From a candidate division WOR-3 bacterium (GTDB taxonomy: Bacteria > Hydrothermota > Tepidihabitantia > Tepidihabitantales > Tepidihabitantaceae): a DNA stretch of 40,077 bases. The notes beneath the pieces were generated by a model, which saw only the letters and a program-made list of their open reading frames with translations, had not been told where the DNA came from and made no database searches. Of this stretch, positions 5,994 to 38,883 are shown one piece after another. A program made the position numbers and the translations under genes. The stretch lies in NCBI GenBank assembly GCA_016867815.1, contig VGIR01000019.1, forward strand, positions 1 to 40,077. The letters run 5' to 3'. Each line of letters opens with the position of its first letter. The stretch's first letter is position 1.

Positions 5994-6275
5994 CTAGAAC
6001 AGCTTGTTCTTCTTGATGTAGACCCAGAGCAGCTTCATCATCTCGCCGATCTTGACGGTTGCCTTGGAACCGAACACCGGCTTCATGTCATCGGTCACCT
6101 TGATGGAGCGCTTCATCAGCGGGCCTTCACCGGACATCAGCTTGTTCTTCTTGATGTAGGCCCAGAGCTTCTTGTTCAGGTCACTGACTTTGATGACCTT
6201 GCCCGGGCCGAACACCGGCTGCATCTCATCGGTCATTTTCACGGTCCTCTTCATGAGGGCCTGTCCTCTCGGCAT
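5994..6275 (-). CDS. SWIB/MDM2-domain-like small protein with internal duplication
   Basis: A 93-residue basic protein made of two similar halves: TVKMTDEMQPVFG...KLWAYIKKNKL and SIKVTDDMKPVFG...LLWVYIKKNKL. The KLWxYIKKNxL signature is diagnostic of the SWIB fold, a pseudo-symmetric small helical domain found in chlamydial and other bacterial proteins and in eukaryotic chromatin remodellers. The bacterial proteins are associated with nucleoid or topoisomerase function. The ATG at 6275 is chosen for its Shine-Dalgarno AGAAAGGA 8 bases upstream; the longer frame to 6350 has no such site. Here both halves carry the strong YIKKNKL motif, more symmetric than usual SWIB domains. DNA or protein partner unknown. 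Confidence 0.8.
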   Translation of the reverse strand: MPRGQALMKRTVKMTDEMQPVFGPGKVIKVSDLNKKLWAYIKKNKLMSGEGPLMKRSIKVTDDMKPVFGSKATVKIGEMMKLLWVYIKKNKLF

Positions 6276-16701: not shown

Positions 16702-16808
16702 GAATGACGAAGCTCGAAATCCGATTGAAGCACGAATTGCGGAGAAAGACCGGCTCGCACCTTAGGCTTCGTTCATATTCAATCGTCATTCGGGTTTCGG
16801 GCTTCGAG
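16702..16808. repeat. Period-7 word repeat, inverted arms, overlaps hydE 3' end
   Basis: Left arm 16702-16741 has GAATGAC and GAAGCTC. Right arm 16765-16808 has CATTCGG, GTTTCGG and GCTTCGA. The right arm encodes the last residues of HydE (EARNPNDD) and its stop codon. Confidence 0.8.
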
Positions 16809-17921
16809 GTTTACCCTCGGTAGTCGTCCCCCCGGCCCCTTGCCCGGCACGCGGCCGATGCGCTCGAGCGTCGCGAGCAGGTTCTTCTGGAACTCCTCGG
16901 CCGTATCGATGACCTTGGCCTTGCCCGGATAGATCTCGTACAGCGCGCGGTACCTAGGCTGTGTGAGATTCGGCATCCAGACGTTTGCCCCGCGTTCGAG
17001 CCCCATTTCGCGGCCGCGTTCCCGGTTGATCGTGGCGAGCGCCGTGGTGGAAGGGATGTTCGCGTCCGGGCAGAGAAGCCGCGTCAGCGCCACGACCTTC
17101 GTCGTCATCGTGTCGGTTGCAGGGACCTGTGCCCGGACATTCGTCATTCGGGATTCGTCATTCGTCATTTGCCCTAGGGGCGTATCAGGGTGCGGCACAA
17201 ACGGGCCGCAGCCGATCATCTCAAGGTCAAGGTCGCGGAAGAGCATGATGTCGTCGGCCAGGGACTCGTAGGTCTGTCCCGGGATGCCGACCATCACGCC
17301 TGAACCCGCCTCGTAACCCATCTCCTTGGCTGCCTTGAGCAGGGCGATACGGTCGCTCACTTCGGTACTGCAGTCCGGGTGAATGCGGCGGAACAGCTCC
17401 GGGTCCGACGTCTCGTGCTTGAGCAGGTACCGGTCCGCCCCGGCTTCGCGCCAGGCAGCCAGTTCCTCAAGGCTCCGCTCGCCCAGCGCCAGGGTGACGG
17501 CGAGGGGCGTCTCGCTCTTGATGCGCCGAACCAGGTGGGTGATGAAGTCACTGGTCAGCCCGTGATCCTCGCCTGACTGCAGCACGACCGTGCCGTACTC
17601 GAGCCTCTGCGCGATCCGGACGCACTCCATCACCTCTTCCTCGCTCATGCGGTAGCGCTCGATCTTCCGGCTGCCGCGGATGCCGCAATAGTGACAATCG
17701 CGACGGCAGAAGCTCGACATTTCGATCAACCCGCGCAGGTGCACCTCGTCGCCGACCTGTTCACGCCGCACCCGGTCGGCCTCCTCCCAGAGGAAGCTGA
17801 GCTTCCAGTCTTCTTCTTCCTTCAACCAGGCCAGCACCTCGTCGCGGGTCAACCCCTTCGTCTCGGTCCCGCCCCCGCCTTTCCCCTGCAGCAGTCTTAT
17901 GGCCGCGCCCGCGGCCTGCAT
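16779..17921 (-). CDS. hydE: [FeFe]-hydrogenase maturase HydE (radical SAM)
   Basis: 380 residues. The radical SAM enzyme that, with HydG and HydF, builds the dithiomethylamine-bridged 2Fe subcluster of [FeFe] hydrogenase. The cluster motif CRRDCHYC lies near residue 72 after the family-typical GDEVHLRGLIE. YGTVVLQSGED, LKHETSD, AGSGVMVGIPGQTYESLADD and CGPFVPHPDTPLG follow in HydE order. Residues QMTNDESRMTNV are encoded by a period-7 repeat (17139-17170), and the C-terminal EARNPNDD by another. The ATG at 17921 is the first usable start. An in-frame GTG at 17966 overlaps hydF's stop (GTGA) but is separated by TGA 17928-17930. The conserved family start is about 22 residues further in (LTRDEVLAWL). 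Confidence 0.93.
   Translation of the reverse strand: MQAAGAAIRLLQGKGGGGTETKGLTRDEVLAWLKEEEDWKLSFLWEEADRVRREQVGDEVHLRGLIEMSSFCRRDCHYCGIRGSRKIERYRMSEEEVMECVRIAQRLEYGTVVLQSGEDHGLTSDFITHLVRRIKSETPLAVTLALGERSLEELAAWREAGADRYLLKHETSDPELFRRIHPDCSTEVSDRIALLKAAKEMGYEAGSGVMVGIPGQTYESLADDIMLFRDLDLEMIGCGPFVPHPDTPLGQMTNDESRMTNVRAQVPATDTMTTKVVALTRLLCPDANIPSTTALATINRERGREMGLERGANVWMPNLTQPRYRALYEIYPGKAKVIDTAEEFQKNLLATLERIGRVPGKGPGGRLPRVNLEARNPNDD
17139..17170. repeat. Period-7 word repeat inside hydE
   Basis: Heptamer ATTCGTC four times (one copy ATTCGGG) plus ATTT, on the plus strand. Translated in the hydE frame it gives TNDESRMTN without disrupting the reading frame. Confidence 0.85.
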
Positions 17922-17962: not shown

Positions 17963-19261
17963 TCACGACGCACCTCTAGTCGTTACTGGTCTTCGGCTTG
18001 GGACACAATCCGAATTGCCGGGCAATTCGGTCATGTCCCGCGCCGTGCGATACACATCGAGCGCGGCCGGGAACGGCTCCAGCGCCCGCTCGAAGATACC
18101 AAGGACGTAGGCAATGGACAGACCATAGTTGGTGATCGGCACGCCCGCCTCACGGCATTTGACTACGCGGTTCAGCACCGCGCGGCGGTTGGTCATGCAG
18201 GCACCGCAGTGAATCACCAGCCGGAACTGCGACACGTCCGGCGGGAAGTCGTGCCCCTGGTGCGTCGTGAACTCAAGCTTGCCGCCGACCTGCTGCTCGA
18301 GCCAGTTCGGGATCTTCACCCGGCCGATGTCGTCGCCGATCGGATGGTGGGTGCAGCTCTCTGCGACCAGCACGCGGTCGCCCGGCCTGAGCCGGTCGAT
18401 TGCCGTCGCACCGCGGACCATCTCGGTGAGGTCGCCACGGTAGCGCGCAAAGAGAATCGAGAATGAGGTGAGCTTCACATCGGCCGGTGTGTCCTGCGCA
18501 ACCTTGGCGAAGGCCTGCGAGTCTGTGACTACGAGGTCCGGCTTCCGGTTCAGCCTCGCCAGCGCGTCCTTCAGTTCGTGCTCGCGGACAACCAGTGAAA
18601 GCTGCCCGTGGTCGAGCAGGTCGCGGATGGCCTGCACCTGCGGCAGGATGATGCGTCCTTTGGGCGCTTCCTTGTCGATCGGCACGACCAGCACCGCGAG
18701 CCCCCGTTCGGGAACGAGGTCGCCGATGATCGATGCCTCCGCCAGGAAATCCTCCGGCGCCACCTCAATCAACGCCTCCCGAATCGCCGCCACGCCCTCG
18801 CCGCGCGCGATCGAGGCCTGCACCGAACGGACGCCCTGCTCCCGAAACCGGGCCTCCAACTCCGGCGCGGGCCGGCCGATGTCGCTCTTGTTGAACACAA
18901 TCAGTACCGATGCCTTCCGTCTCTTCAGTTCGGCAAGGATGCCATCCTCAAAGCCGCCCCACTCGCCGGAGTCGGCCACGATGACGCCGAGGTCAGTCCG
19001 GTCGAGCGCCTTCCTGGTCTTCGCAACCCGCTCGGCGCCGAGAGCGCCAACATCGTCAACGCCGGCCGTGTCGATGAAGAGCACCGGGCCGAGCGGCAGT
19101 AGTTCCATTGGTTTCTCGACCGGGTCCGTCGTAGTGCCGGCGACGTCCGAGACAATCGACACCTGCTGCCGCGTCAGCGCGTTCAACAGCGACGACTTGC
19201 CGACATTGCGACGGCCGAATATCCCGATGTGCAGCCGCATTGACTTTGGCGTCCGTTCCAT
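17963..19261 (-). CDS. hydF: [FeFe]-hydrogenase maturation GTPase/scaffold HydF
   Basis: 432 residues. HydF is the GTPase and scaffold on which the 2Fe subcluster is assembled before transfer to HydA. Domain order: GTPase (P-loop GRRNVGKSS at about 16-24, FIDTAGVDD, FNKSD), dimerisation domain (LVVREHELKDAL), cluster domain with CTHHP (about residue 302) and HCGACMTNRR (about residue 350), the HydF cluster-ligand pattern. The final about 20 residues after TARDMTE are encoded across a 40-base palindrome (18000-18039) and are not typical of the family. The start at ATG 19261 has only a weak ribosome site because a word repeat occupies that position; ATG at codon 8 is an alternative. Confidence 0.95.
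   Translation of the reverse strand: MERTPKSMRLHIGIFGRRNVGKSSLLNALTRQQVSIVSDVAGTTTDPVEKPMELLPLGPVLFIDTAGVDDVGALGAERVAKTRKALDRTDLGVIVADSGEWGGFEDGILAELKRRKASVLIVFNKSDIGRPAPELEARFREQGVRSVQASIARGEGVAAIREALIEVAPEDFLAEASIIGDLVPERGLAVLVVPIDKEAPKGRIILPQVQAIRDLLDHGQLSLVVREHELKDALARLNRKPDLVVTDSQAFAKVAQDTPADVKLTSFSILFARYRGDLTEMVRGATAIDRLRPGDRVLVAESCTHHPIGDDIGRVKIPNWLEQQVGGKLEFTTHQGHDFPPDVSQFRLVIHCGACMTNRRAVLNRVVKCREAGVPITNYGLSIAYVLGIFERALEPFPAALDVYRTARDMTELPGNSDCVPSRRPVTTRGAS
18000..18039. repeat. REP-like palindrome in hydF 3' end
   Basis: Inner arms CCGAATTGCC-G-GGCAATTCGG are perfect (18010-18030). Outer arms GGGACA (18000-18005) and TGTCCC (18034-18039) also pair. It lies within the coding region for the last residues of HydF. 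Confidence 0.8.
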
Positions 19262-20759: not shown

Positions 20760-21094
20760 CGCATTTCCTCCGGTCCTTCTGCCATTTTGACCTTAGCATT
20801 TTGCAGTTTGCATTCTGCATTGCCTTCTTTCCTGCGGAGCGCCGCTTTAACGCTCACGCCCGGAACCGCGCCCAGCTTCCCGGTCATGGCGCCGATCTCG
20901 TCATTCGAACCGTCGACGATGACGGAAATGACCGACAGGTTCCGCTCACGGTAGGGAACGCCCATCCGGCCGACAAGAATCCGGCCGTACTGGCTCAGTA
21001 TCTCGTTCACCTTCGGCGCGGTATCGAGCCGGTTCTCGACGAACACAGCGACGACGCCCAGCCGGTGTTCACCGACAGCATCTGGTTCATTCAT
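20756..21094 (-). CDS. Iron-only hydrogenase system regulator (TM1266-type ACT-like protein)
   Basis: 112 residues, with a ferredoxin/ACT-like fold of about 85: HRLGVVAVFVENR, NEILSQYGRILVGRMGVPYR, LSVISVIVDGSNDEIGAMTG and VPGVSVKAAL. This is the TM1266 family, which habitually sits with hydEFG and is thought to regulate or assist the system, perhaps as a small-ligand sensor. The tail NAECKLQNAKVKMAE is encoded by a period-7 word repeat (20783-20824) and is foreign to the family. GAAGGA lies 7 bases before the ATG at 21094. First gene of the operon; the promoter is about 260 bases upstream. Confidence 0.9.
   Translation of the reverse strand: MNEPDAVGEHRLGVVAVFVENRLDTAPKVNEILSQYGRILVGRMGVPYRERNLSVISVIVDGSNDEIGAMTGKLGAVPGVSVKAALRRKEGNAECKLQNAKVKMAEGPEEMR
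20783..20824. repeat. Period-7 word repeat encoding the tail of the TM1266-like protein
   Basis: Six heptamers: CATTTTG (twice), ACCTTAG, CAGTTTG, CATTCTG, CATTGCC. Read in frame on the minus strand it gives about 14 C-terminal residues. Confidence 0.85.
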
Positions 21095-24823: not shown

Positions 24824-26233
24824 CTACCTTGTCACGACGACCTTGCGGATGGCTTGTGGCCTGAGACTTGTGGCTTGTGGCTGTTCCTGCACAAAGTACA
24901 CCCCCGGCGCCAGCGCCCGCACATCGTTTGCGCCCGGCCTCAGGTCCATCACCTTCCGGCCTGTCGCATCCAGCAAGCTTGCGGCTTGTGGCTTGCGGCT
25001 TGTGGCTTCCTGCAGGAGCAGCACCCCCCGGACGATGGTCGCCTCCAGCCTGGAACTGGGGGCTTGCGGCTTGAAGCCATCCTCAGCGCCGGTCACGGAC
25101 GAATCCCGTATGACGGAGACGGTAGAGCTCTGTTGATTCGCGACGTAGATGCGGTGCTGCACCGGATTCCGGGCTAAGGCACAGGGAAAGCCGCCGACGC
25201 TAATCGTCGCGACGACCAAGTCAATGCCTCCGTCAATCACCGTGACGCTACTGCCACCGCCGTTCGCGCAGTAGACCTTGTTGTAGACCGAGTCGTAGAC
25301 CAGGACGCGAGGCCGGCGTCCGACCGCGACCGTCTTGAGGACCGTATCCGCCGCCGCGTCAATCACCGTAACGTTGTCGTTGTTGTAGTTCGCGCAGTAC
25401 ACCTTGTTGTTGGTCGAGTTGTACGCCACGGCCATGGGCCCGCCTCCCACCGTGATGGTTGTCATCAAAGTGTCGGAAGCGCCATCGATCACCGTGACGC
25501 TTCCGGAGGCAAAGTTGGCGCAGTAGACCTTGTTGCCGGCCGGATTGCACACCAGCGCCCAAGGCGTGGCTCCTACCGCGATTGTCTTGATGACCGTGTC
25601 CGCGGCCGCATCAATCACCGTGACGTTACCGCTTCCGCTGTTCGCGCAGTAGACTTTGTTGCCGGTCGGACTCCAAACCGGTCCGAGCGGGGTACTCCCG
25701 ACCGCGATGGTCTTGATGACCGTATCGGCAGTTCCGTCAATCACCGTGACGTTGTTGCTGTTCTGATTGGCGCAATAGACCTTGCCGGTCGAATCGCAAG
25801 TCAGACCAACCGGGTTGTCTCCGACCCGGATGGTCTTCAGGACAACGTTGGTGTCCCCCGCAATCACCGTGACTGTATCATTCCCAGGATGGGCACAGTA
25901 GATCCTGTTGTTTGTCGGATTGTAGACGATGCCTCGCGGGTCCGTGCCGACCGGGTAGTTGACGACCGGAATCGTACCGACGACGGCGTTGGTATCCCCG
26001 GCGATGACCGTAACGTTGTCGCCGGTCTGATTGGCGCAATAGACCCTGTTCCCAATCGAATTGTAGACCAGACCGGAAGGACTGGCTCCGGTCGGCAGAT
26101 TGGTCTCAAGCCACTGCGCATTGGCCGCCGACAGGCAGCAGCAGACGACCAACAGCACGGCCAAGGGGCATGCGGCCCGGTTGCGGCAAAGGACGTTACG
26201 GTTGTGTAGAACACTGACGCGGCGGTCGTCCAC
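24824..26233 (-). CDS. Secreted YVTN beta-propeller protein with C-terminal sorting domain
   Basis: 469 residues. GTG start at 26233 with AAAGGAGG 4-5 bases upstream. Signal peptide (AVLLVVCCCLSAANAQ). Eight YVTN units of about 42 residues (VGxxPxG...NKVYCAN...NNVTVIDGxADTVIKTIAVG) form a complete propeller. A C-terminal type-IX-like sorting/anchoring domain follows (LLDATGRKVMDLRPGANDVR, LAPGVYFV, ending KVVVTR). Within that domain three stretches, FKPQAPSSRLEA, EATSRKPQAAS and EQPQATSLRPQAIR, are encoded by period-7 repeats (24852-25076) and look inserted between the beta strands. Probably displayed at the cell surface or secreted; ligand unknown. Paralogue of the truncated protein at 202-915. 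Confidence 0.9.
   Translation of the reverse strand: MDDRRVSVLHNRNVLCRNRAACPLAVLLVVCCCLSAANAQWLETNLPTGASPSGLVYNSIGNRVYCANQTGDNVTVIAGDTNAVVGTIPVVNYPVGTDPRGIVYNPTNNRIYCAHPGNDTVTVIAGDTNVVLKTIRVGDNPVGLTCDSTGKVYCANQNSNNVTVIDGTADTVIKTIAVGSTPLGPVWSPTGNKVYCANSGSGNVTVIDAAADTVIKTIAVGATPWALVCNPAGNKVYCANFASGSVTVIDGASDTLMTTITVGGGPMAVAYNSTNNKVYCANYNNDNVTVIDAAADTVLKTVAVGRRPRVLVYDSVYNKVYCANGGGSSVTVIDGGIDLVVATISVGGFPCALARNPVQHRIYVANQQSSTVSVIRDSSVTGAEDGFKPQAPSSRLEATIVRGVLLLQEATSRKPQAASLLDATGRKVMDLRPGANDVRALAPGVYFVQEQPQATSLRPQAIRKVVVTR
24852..25076. repeat. Three GCTTGTG-type period-7 word repeats inside the YVTN gene
   Basis: Blocks at 24852-24882 (GCTTGTG, ACTTGTG), 24977-25011 (GCTTGCG/GCTTGTG alternating four times) and 25062-25076 (GCTTGCG, GCTTGAA). 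All are in the same orientation and in frame, within loops of the sorting domain. Confidence 0.85.
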
Positions 26234-32403: not shown

Positions 32404-34332
32404 CTAGCGGCGCAGCGCTCGAAAGACCTTCTCCGCCAGCGCCGGGCCGAAGCCCTTAACCTTGGCAATCTCCTCGACGCTTGCGATCCTGACTTTGTCC
32501 AGTGACCCGAAGTGCTGGATGAGTGTCTTCTTCCGTACCGGGCCGAGGCCGGTAATCTCGTCGAGCTCGGACTCGACCATCTTCTTTCCGCGCAGCTTGC
32601 GGTGGAAGGTGATGGCGAAGCGGTGCGATTCGTCGCGGATGCGCTTCAACAGCTTCAGCGCGGGTGAGGTCACGGGAATCGTGATTTCCCGGCCGTCGTC
32701 GTAGTAGAGCGTGTCGGTCCGCTTGGCCAGCCCGAGTATCGGTATCTCGGCATCGAACTGGCCGTAGGCTTTCACCGCCGACGACAATTGCCCTTTGCCG
32801 CCATCAACCAGTACAAGGTCCGGCAAGGGACGGTTCTTCTCCAGCAGGCCGCGCACGCGCCGGGCCAGCACCTCCTCCATCATGGCGAAGTCGTTGGAGC
32901 CGGTCACGGTGCGGATCTTGAACAACCGGTACTGCTGTTTGGTCGGGCGGTCGTCGCGGAATACGACAATCGAGCCGACCGCGTTGGTCCCCTGCGTGTT
33001 CGATATGTCTACGCCCTCAATCAGCCGCGGCACATTCGGCAGCCCAAGGACCTCAGCCAGCTCGCGGTTTCCTGCCGGGACTCGCTCTTCAGGCCGAAGC
33101 TCGACCAGCGCCTTCTCGGCGTTTGCCCGCGCGAGTTCCATCAGCCGCACCTTCTCCCCCCGCTCCGGCACGACGATCCTGACTGCACGACTCCGCGTCT
33201 CCGCACCCCCCTCCCTTCCATTCCCTCCCCCTTGAGGGGGAGGGAGGGGTAAGGGTGACGCTTTCCGTGCCCGCCTTTCGGTAAGCAACGCCTCGAGCGC
33301 CTCCGCATCCTCGATTGCAGCCGGCAGAATGATCTCCTCCGGGATGTCGTGGGTGTGGGTATGGACTGAACGCACAACAGTCGACAGTAGTTCCGAATCG
33401 GGCGCGTTCTCGCCGGCGGTCAGCGAATACTCCTCACGTGAGACTATCTTCCCTTCACGCACGCGGAAGAGCGCCGCGACTGCAGCCCGCGCCCCGCGTG
33501 CCAGCCCGATGATGTCGCGGCTGGTCTTGTCCTGCAGGACTGCCTGCTGGTCCTTCCTGATCTCCCGCAGGGCCAGCAACTGGTCGCGCAGGGTCGCCGC
33601 CACTTCGAAGTCCTGGGCCTGCGACGCTGCCCACATGCGCTGCTCGACCTGCTCGGTGAGCTCGTCCGACCGGCCGGAAAGGAAACGAATCACATCCTTG
33701 ACCTGCTGCGCATACTGCTCCTGCGTCACCTTGTCGGCACACGGACCCGAGCAACGGCTCAGCTCGAAGTTCAGACATGGTCGGTAATCGGGAGTCGAGA
33801 GTCGGGAGTCGGCGGGCAGGTCCCGCTTGCAGGTGCGGATCCGGAATATCCGCTTCACGGCCTTCAACGCCTTCCTGAGTTCCCGCGCCGACGTGTAGGG
33901 GCCGAAGAACACCGACCCGTCGTCGCGGATGTTCCGCGTGACGAATATGCGCGGGTAAGGCTCGGCCGTGATCTTGAGATGGGGGAACTTCTTGTCGTCC
34001 CGCAGCCGCACGTTGTAGCGCGGCTTCTTGAACTTGATGAAGTTCTCTTCGAGGACCAGCGCCTCAACCTCGGAGCGGGTGATGACCGTCTCGAGATCGG
34101 CGACCTTGCTGACGAGCGAGTTGAGCCGCGGGCTTTCCTGCGGCTGCGTGTACGCCCTCAGACGCTCGCGCAGGCTCCGCGCCTTGCCGACGTACAGCAC
34201 GCGGCCATTAGCGTCTTTGAGCAGGTAGACGCCGGGCCCCTCAGGCGCGGTCGCGACCTGAGTCGCGAAGTGATCGAGTGACCTAGTGGTCGAGTGACCC
34301 AGTGAACTCGACTCTGATTCCGGCGTCCTCAC
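32404..34332 (-). CDS. uvrC: Excinuclease ABC subunit C (UvrC)
   Basis: 642 residues. Nucleotide-excision-repair endonuclease that cuts on both sides of a lesion with UvrB. GIY-YIG domain (about 33-110: GPGVYLLKDANGRVLYVGKARSL), Cys-rich motif (CKRDLP...CLNFELSRCSGPC), UVR domain binding UvrB (about 215-250), RNase H-like C-terminal nuclease (GVDISNTQGTNAVGS, VLVDGGKGQL) and tandem HhH at the end (GLGPVRKKTLIQHFG, VKGFGPALAEKVF). It starts at GTG 34332, giving a 25-residue extension (SSSLGHSTTRSLDHF) encoded by a period-8 repeat. Two more repeat-derived insertions lie at 33784-33811 and 33202-33258. The core motifs are intact, so it is probably functional. Confidence 0.95.
   Translation of the reverse strand: MRTPESESSSLGHSTTRSLDHFATQVATAPEGPGVYLLKDANGRVLYVGKARSLRERLRAYTQPQESPRLNSLVSKVADLETVITRSEVEALVLEENFIKFKKPRYNVRLRDDKKFPHLKITAEPYPRIFVTRNIRDDGSVFFGPYTSARELRKALKAVKRIFRIRTCKRDLPADSRLSTPDYRPCLNFELSRCSGPCADKVTQEQYAQQVKDVIRFLSGRSDELTEQVEQRMWAASQAQDFEVAATLRDQLLALREIRKDQQAVLQDKTSRDIIGLARGARAAVAALFRVREGKIVSREEYSLTAGENAPDSELLSTVVRSVHTHTHDIPEEIILPAAIEDAEALEALLTERRARKASPLPLPPPQGGGNGREGGAETRSRAVRIVVPERGEKVRLMELARANAEKALVELRPEERVPAGNRELAEVLGLPNVPRLIEGVDISNTQGTNAVGSIVVFRDDRPTKQQYRLFKIRTVTGSNDFAMMEEVLARRVRGLLEKNRPLPDLVLVDGGKGQLSSAVKAYGQFDAEIPILGLAKRTDTLYYDDGREITIPVTSPALKLLKRIRDESHRFAITFHRKLRGKKMVESELDEITGLGPVRKKTLIQHFGSLDKVRIASVEEIAKVKGFGPALAEKVFRALRR
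33202..33258. repeat. C/G-run palindromic repeat inside uvrC
   Basis: Perfect arms CCCTCCCCC-TTGA-GGGGGAGGG, embedded in longer imperfect C- and G-rich arms. In frame it gives SPLPLPPPQGGGNGREGG, a low-complexity loop absent from typical UvrC. Confidence 0.8.
33784..33811. repeat. Period-7 word repeat inside uvrC
   Basis: GTAATCG, GGAGTCG, AGAGTCG, GGAGTCG. In frame it encodes ADSRLSTPDY between the two halves of the Cys-rich motif. Confidence 0.8.
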
Positions 34333-37755: not shown

Positions 37756-38883
37756 CTAGAGCAGTTGAAAACCGATTGTGAACCCGGGCCAGACGCGCAC
37801 GTCCCAGTCCTCGTGCATGTCGAGCAGCGTTCCGTCTTGCTCGTCTGCGAATTCTGACACGCGGACGTTGACGCTCGGGCCTGCGGTCAAGGCCAGCTTG
37901 TCGCTCAACTGCCAGCCGCCGGTCATCCGCAGACTCGAAAGCAGTGCGATCTGCCCCTCCCGGAACCAATCCGGACCTCCGTAGACGCTGCCGCCGAGGG
38001 CATCTATGTCCACAAAGAACTCTTGAAGCGGAATGTGACCGCCGATGCCCATCCCGGCTATAAGCCGGGTCAAGTCGCCATCCGGCCGGCAGCCCACCAT
38101 GAAGATGTTGTATATGCTCCTGGACCCGGTCTTGATGCCGAGATTGAGCAATGAGTACTCACTGGCCCAGGCGTTGACGTGGAACTGCCCGTTCTCGACG
38201 ATGCTGACCAGACCGATCGGCACGTCGACCTCCTCGGCGATGTTCACCAACCCGAACTGAAGTCCTCGGCCTGTGCCGCAGATGTTGACCAGACCGATTT
38301 GCGCACCGGTGAACTCCTCGGCGATATTGACGGCCCCGGACAACTGCGCTCCCCACAGATGTCCCCCGGTCACATTGACCGAACCGGCCATCTGCGCGCC
38401 ATATACGCTGGAGTCGACGATATTAGCTGCCCCCGCCATCTGCAACCCGGTGAAGCATCCGCCAACTATGTTCGCCGCCCCGGCCATCTGCAGCCCGCCA
38501 AAGCAGCCGCCGAGCACGTTCACGGCCCCGGCCGTCTGCACACCACCGAACTCGCGGCCGACGATGTTCACGACCCCGGCCTGCTGCAGCCCGGTGAAGT
38601 CCCTGCCCACGCGATTGAAGACTCCTGCCGCCTGGTAGCCCAGGACGTCATCCTCCTCGTAGTTGTAGACGCCTCCCAGCTCGATGCCCTGCAGCCTGCC
38701 GAGCTGGCCGCCGATGATGTTGAACGAGTAGTCCGAGCTGACGTTCCACGGCTCGCTGTTGGTCGCTACTCCGGGCACGAAAGAGACCGACAACGGCCGG
38801 TAGACATACTGCCGGGGGCTCTCCTGCGCCGCCATCCCGGCGGCCAGGATCAGGATCGTAACGAACAAGCGAGCTGTTTTCAT
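37756..38883 (-). CDS. LA_2272-type surface-repeat outer-membrane-like protein
   Basis: 375 residues from ATG 38883, with GAGAGGAG 7 bases upstream. Signal peptide (ARLFVTILILAAGMAAQ). Residues 70-235 consist of about ten tandem units of about 19 residues with the pattern G(x)QxAGxxNxxG (GLQMAGAANIVGGCFTG, GAQMAGSVNVTGGHLWG, GLQFGLVNIAEE), the Leptospira LA_2272-like surface repeat. A C-terminal region of amphipathic strands ends in Phe-x-Leu-Leu, as in outer-membrane barrels. Likely surface-exposed. The function of the repeat is not established. Two units each carry a single Cys (GGCF). Confidence 0.8.
   Translation of the reverse strand: MKTARLFVTILILAAGMAAQESPRQYVYRPLSVSFVPGVATNSEPWNVSSDYSFNIIGGQLGRLQGIELGGVYNYEEDDVLGYQAAGVFNRVGRDFTGLQQAGVVNIVGREFGGVQTAGAVNVLGGCFGGLQMAGAANIVGGCFTGLQMAGAANIVDSSVYGAQMAGSVNVTGGHLWGAQLSGAVNIAEEFTGAQIGLVNICGTGRGLQFGLVNIAEEVDVPIGLVSIVENGQFHVNAWASEYSLLNLGIKTGSRSIYNIFMVGCRPDGDLTRLIAGMGIGGHIPLQEFFVDIDALGGSVYGGPDWFREGQIALLSSLRMTGGWQLSDKLALTAGPSVNVRVSEFADEQDGTLLDMHEDWDVRVWPGFTIGFQLL

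Follow-up and report, generated by a model that had tools for sequence, protein, structure and literature searches.

A tandem heptanucleotide repeat lies in frame within hydE of a candidate division WOR-3 bacterium, where dispersed repeats probably enter the loops of conserved enzymes across the genus

HydE is required for the maturation of [FeFe]-hydrogenases. A hydE open reading frame of 380 amino acids lies on the reverse strand of the window, by which we mean the whole analysed stretch of 40,077 nucleotides, a single contig (C19) from the 3.37 Mb draft assembly of a candidate division WOR-3 bacterium. Its product scores 307.7 bits against TIGR03956 (cutoff 254.6) and contains the radical-SAM cysteine motif CRRDCHYCGIR; the gene adjoins hydF, hydG and an ORF of the TM1266 family. 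The AlphaFold model of the protein, built from 10 sequences and with a mean pLDDT of 85, matches HydE of Thermotoga maritima (3cix) with a TM-score of 0.90 normalised by the target, and an [FeFe]-hydrogenase match is present in genome G000 (n = 1). Family score, cysteine motif, fold, neighbours and genomic hydrogenase thus all identify the gene as hydE. The first-pass annotation had called this maturase essential, a description we do not retain; two relatives carry two hydE copies, and G000 yielded a single hydrogenase match. The features of the gene are as follows:

16779..17921, (-) strand: hydE, [FeFe]-hydrogenase maturase and host of the array (TIGR03956 and fold match to 3cix)
17138..17169, (-) strand: heptad array in HydE, coding-strand unit GACGAAT, 4.6 copies
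17146..17152, (-) strand: variant unit ATTCGGG, where the others read ATTCGTC (direct reading of the sequence)
16779..16814, (-) strand: heptad-type DNA at the 3' end of hydE, read as the C-terminal tail VNLEARNPNDD plus stop codon (TRF, 16789-16812)

TRF detected the internal array with a period of 7 and a score of 50, and its letters are ATTCGTC ATTCGGG ATTCGTC ATTCGTC ATT. It had been described as four and a half ATTCGTC words; we confirm that the array is real and in frame, and correct its make-up to three perfect units, one variant (GTC to GGG) and one partial ATT, with about 2.4 perfect units in tandem. The codons at 17139-17168 specify residues 252-261, MTNDESRMTN, and G+C content is 44% in the array versus 65% in the whole gene. 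Lag-7 matches fill 21 positions of the best 25-position stretch, a count that no synonymous recoding of this protein reached in 2000 trials (mean best 14.3), nor any of 2000 codon-order shuffles. As no synonymous recoding reached 21, the repeat belongs to the DNA and is not imposed by the protein. With up to two mismatches, ATTCGTCATTCGTC occurs six times in the window versus 0.23 expected, and exact copies number seven in the genome versus none for a reversed-pattern control. The array therefore has the properties of a bacterial heptanucleotide simple-sequence repeat, namely 7-nt tandem units that are dispersed and enriched over chance.

Perfect GACGAAT units read on the coding strand generate an in-frame TGA once every 21 nt (MTNDE-stop-R). 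By direct reading this codon would fall at 17151-17153, where the variant unit makes TCC (Ser) instead, such that the sole non-consensus full unit of the array coincides exactly with the would-be stop codon. The coincidence suggests that selection may have favoured the stop-removing unit. Among stop-bearing heptads inside genes the strand bias was only weak, with 4 of 34 on the coding strand versus 8 of 34 on the other. The proposal that the frame is unbroken was borne out: the dN/dS of hydE against its nearest relative (G003:C94) is approximately 0.11, indicating that the reading frame has been kept under purifying selection. At the 3' end of hydE, a shared-repeat segment lies at residue 377, and the tail is of low confidence in the HydE model. 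In the neighbouring hydF we observed approximately 38 residues at the 3' end (window 17963-18079) that extend past the end of the TIGR03918 match (residue 394 of 432); this tail ends in GNSDCVPSRRPVTTRGAS and resembles a DSDCVPSR peptide in an insert of the HydE of G001.

The array had been placed in a variable loop after the HPDTPLG motif, and structural comparison agrees with this placement. HydE of T. maritima has 13 residues fewer at this loop, other distant HydE homologs also have a shorter loop, and pLDDT falls to approximately 59 over residues 251-260 of an otherwise well-modelled fold. In the window the loop reads CTA GGG CAA ATG ACG AAT GAC GAA TCC CGA ATG ACG AAT GTC CGG GCA CAG. The closest copy, G003:C94, reads CTC GGG CAA ATG ACG AAT GAT GAG GCA CAG, that is, the same words at the same site and with the same start, shorter by exactly 21 nt (three heptads, seven codons). 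Six further homologs carry other sequence in the same loop, other repeat types included, with a RDAAALSLPTGE-like loop in three HydE homologs and HSGTQSLES in one. Two members of the genus also have a second, diverged hydE copy (G003:C89 and G004:C115), each with its own inserts, and in these second copies the loop inserts are longer (e.g. MGTVHNGTVPG and DSSDSLEMTERGESRNLS). Because all relatives in the genus carry some longer loop, we found no truly empty HydE site at the nucleotide level among them. Interpretation of the array as a surface-loop insertion is therefore partly supported: the segment is repeat-derived, as claimed, but relatives' loops are already longer and the nearest has the same words minus 21 nt. 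Together these point to an expandable, re-used site rather than to one clean insertion into a short loop. In the tree, G003:C94 groups with a heptad-free paralog from G003, and the heptad that G003:C94 shares with the window could equally stem from a single ancestral insertion that was later replaced or from two separate insertions.

If the segment had instead descended from a common HydE ancestor and been kept as protein, its period of 7 would be coincidental. The loop of the nearest relative does also start QMTNDE; however, the residues are not conserved past that relative, the shared part is nearly identical in its DNA words, and none of the synonymous recodings reproduced the periodicity. 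Moreover, as the relatives' loops are unrelated in sequence, the same residues in different DNA wording were not found in the alignment. We regard descent of this kind as largely refuted, with very little probability left to it.

The hydE array is not an isolated case; heptads also form the tail of hydE, lie within uvrC in the same window and occur in many other genes. The exact 14-mer is found at 40 sites distributed over all six genomes of the genus; across 141 other genomes from the phylum it has 11. Among short tandem periods in the genus, 7 ranks first, and it is absent from the family sample (runs of N were removed before the period scan of family and class sequence). Runs of at least 11 lag-7 matches numbered 22 in 400 kb of the window's genome, versus none in Markov sequence, and none was present in 119 kb of family sequence. 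The 400-kb sample was partly picked for hits, and the 266 kb of stretches that were not so picked still held 12 such runs. About half of the arrays lie within predicted genes (called approximately, with a simple codon-usage caller), whereas about 85% of the sampled sequence is coding; arrays are thus depleted in genes, and heptads are densest in intergenic DNA. Of the 12-mers in inserts, 17.8% recur in the intergenic sample, about four times the rate for the conserved portions of those genes (4.3%), and 13-mers that recur at five or more intergenic places are carried by 17 of 344 genes versus none in the reversed control. A repeat origin is thereby shown for many inserts but not for every one, a few having little or no match.

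Seven is not divisible by three, so a phase-variation switch, in which gain or loss of a 7-nt unit by slippage shifts the frame and turns HydE off and on, deserves consideration, and simple genic repeats act in this way elsewhere (literature cited in PMC4692102). Yet only about 2.4 perfect units stand in tandem here, the array lies deep in the gene (residues 252-261 of 380) and not near its start, and the sole difference observed is the frame-keeping 21 nt. Furthermore, heptads are spread over unrelated genes and intergenic DNA and do not follow a surface- or contingency-gene pattern. Taken together, these points make a switch improbable.

We aligned UvrC, Mfd, MetRS, an AddA-like helicase and a nitroreductase across the genus and identified in-frame, species-specific inserts of dispersed intergenic repeats in all of these proteins, with all six sampled genomes contributing. 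Further heptad arrays in the window are:

33787..33813, (-) strand: uvrC heptad array, codes ADSRLSTPD (alignment with relatives)
24977..25008, (-) strand: heptad array (GCTTGCG/GCTTGTG) in a beta-propeller protein, codes EATSRKPQAAS (TRF)
20796..20821, (-) strand: heptad array (GCATTTT) in the TM1266-family regulator ORF, codes some of its C-terminal tail (TRF)

One site in UvrC holds 2 residues in two species, 7 residues (the heptad) in the window's genome and 68-69 residues in two others; a 207-nt UvrC insert splits into repeats, with at least 28-45 scored matches in every genome of the genus. One site in Mfd varies from 8 to 121 residues and is occupied by different repeats in five species. 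The nitroreductase offers a filled site and an empty one: DLTxDVKxYF in five species versus DLSRQSPNDEGRMTNDGVREFF in G003, where alone 12 extra residues are built on CGAATGA CGAAGGA CGAATGA. Two further inserts were noticed in these proteins. Residues 358-383 of UvrC (window 33184-33261) form a 26-residue insert, ASPLPLPPPQGGGNGREGGAETRSRA, that is without counterpart in the other four UvrC proteins of the genus and whose DNA has few matches in the intergenic sample. The 121-residue Mfd insert of G004 (L114; G004:C290) consists of period-9 words, CACAGATTA, which code TQITQI and represent a tandem class unlike the heptads.

The persistence of inserts in conserved enzymes, and the re-use of the same loops in different species, could mean that an insert or its RNA or DNA word is selected for a role, be it a protein contact, an RNA structure or a regulatory site. 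In contrast to this expectation, the insert sequence at a given site is completely different from species to species, RNA structure around the hydE array is no stronger than in shuffles (z -0.78), and model confidence at the loop is low. A selected role for the hydE segment consequently seems unlikely, to about the degree that a switch does. An assembly or binning artefact is less credible still. Although all genomes of the genus are drafts and some contigs look faulty, the same phenomenon was observed in six assemblies, at orthologous sites and in open frames, and the heptad words at the HydE site are common to two genomes. The faulty contigs include G005:C332 (L141). There the N-terminus of the AddA-like ORF begins FRRVLFRS, is unrelated and resembles UvrC, and the ORF is probably an assembly chimera.

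We therefore think it very probable that the hydE segment belongs to a dispersed family of tandem heptads and became joined to the reading frame at a permissive loop, and that the process is genus-wide. We envisage that repeat DNA was copied or inserted at the variable loop after HPDTPLG, and that the insert was retained because its total length is divisible by three and because the variant unit, as its sequence makes plain, removes the TGA; selection for this outcome would be our proposed explanation. The number of units would then have changed, as the difference from the nearest relative attests, by three heptads, the smallest frame-keeping change in unit number (21 nt). The extra residues may form a flexible, probably neutral loop that leaves the radical-SAM fold intact. 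Across the genus, several repeat families would recurrently insert into the same loops and linkers in conserved proteins, arriving by copying or insertion of repeat DNA with subsequent loss of frame-breaking outcomes; no target-site duplication was seen. Slippage at a chance seed could explain changes in unit number; it does not account for unrelated repeat families reaching a single loop. It is conceivable, though we lean against it, that the genus has an active process by which short repeats of many families, chiefly of period 7, are spread and rewritten and the same loops and linkers of conserved enzymes are continually remodelled, and that loop sequence in these proteins is set largely by the traffic of intergenic repeats and not by ordinary protein evolution.

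In-frame dispersed repeats in conserved proteins are best known from the Rickettsia palindromic elements (RPEs), which are 105-146 bp in length, have terminal inverted repeats and form long stem-loops; a guanylate kinase that bears an RPE was reported to be still active (PMC2229807). The WOR-3 inserts resemble RPEs in being dispersed intergenic repeats found in frame within conserved protein genes. Unlike RPEs, the hydE array is only 32 nt long, no inverted repeat was found around the two arrays tested (window 17100-17210 and L076 9560-9680), and several unrelated repeat families occupy the same sites in the genus. The enterobacterial elements RU-1, RU-2 and RU-3 are 103-168 bp, MITE-like and found intragenically (PMC2759123). 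They share with the present repeats a small size, an intergenic distribution, open frames and in-frame fusion to genes, but the WOR-3 inserts include tandem heptads.

Tandem heptamers themselves are known from other bacteria. Arrays of TAACTGA occur in Beggiatoaceae, cyanobacteria and Bacteroidetes, mostly in intergenic DNA and usually just upstream of start codons; one orientation stops all frames, so that entry into genes is limited, and those arrays that do fall in genes are found chiefly at protein ends (PMC4679880). The hydE array is likewise built of tandem heptamers and is subject to the same orientation (stop) constraint. It differs in that TAACTGA is one fixed word, whereas the WOR-3 genus uses many words and places inserts inside conserved enzymes; none of the 150 loci fetched held TAACTGA in tandem. 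Heptanucleotide repeats are over-represented in many bacteria, mainly in non-coding regions, and the GGGAATC and GGGGAYT arrays of Xanthomonas and Nostoc are G-rich and quadruplex-forming (PMC4692102). These arrays too are abundant, dispersed heptamer tandems, but the hydE array is not G-rich, consisting on the coding strand of GACGAAT with one CCCGAAT, and tandem GGGAATC was absent from the loci fetched. In the open-access literature searched, we found no report on WOR-3 tandem repeats or on in-frame insertions of heptamers.

Taken alone, the hydE array is a modest finding; what deserves attention is that several repeat families re-use enzyme loops across the genus. This uncultured genus uses tandem heptads as well as several other families, at the same sites in different species, and the proteins affected act in DNA repair, translation and hydrogenase assembly. 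It becomes possible to test which loops accept an insert and by what means short repeats travel with no recognisable element. Segments of this kind are bound to mislead protein alignments, domain models and gene calling in these genomes.

Some proteins carry several heptad arrays each. These are beta-propeller or large hypothetical proteins (L051 499-3858, L053 13700-16093 and window 24824-26233), with peptides such as QEATSRKPQAAS and SPESRIQ. Longer tandem repeats of 126, 48 and 138 nt are also present in the window (25233-25753, 38429-38588 and 6000-6254, respectively), within or overlapping predicted protein genes, and all three periods are multiples of three.
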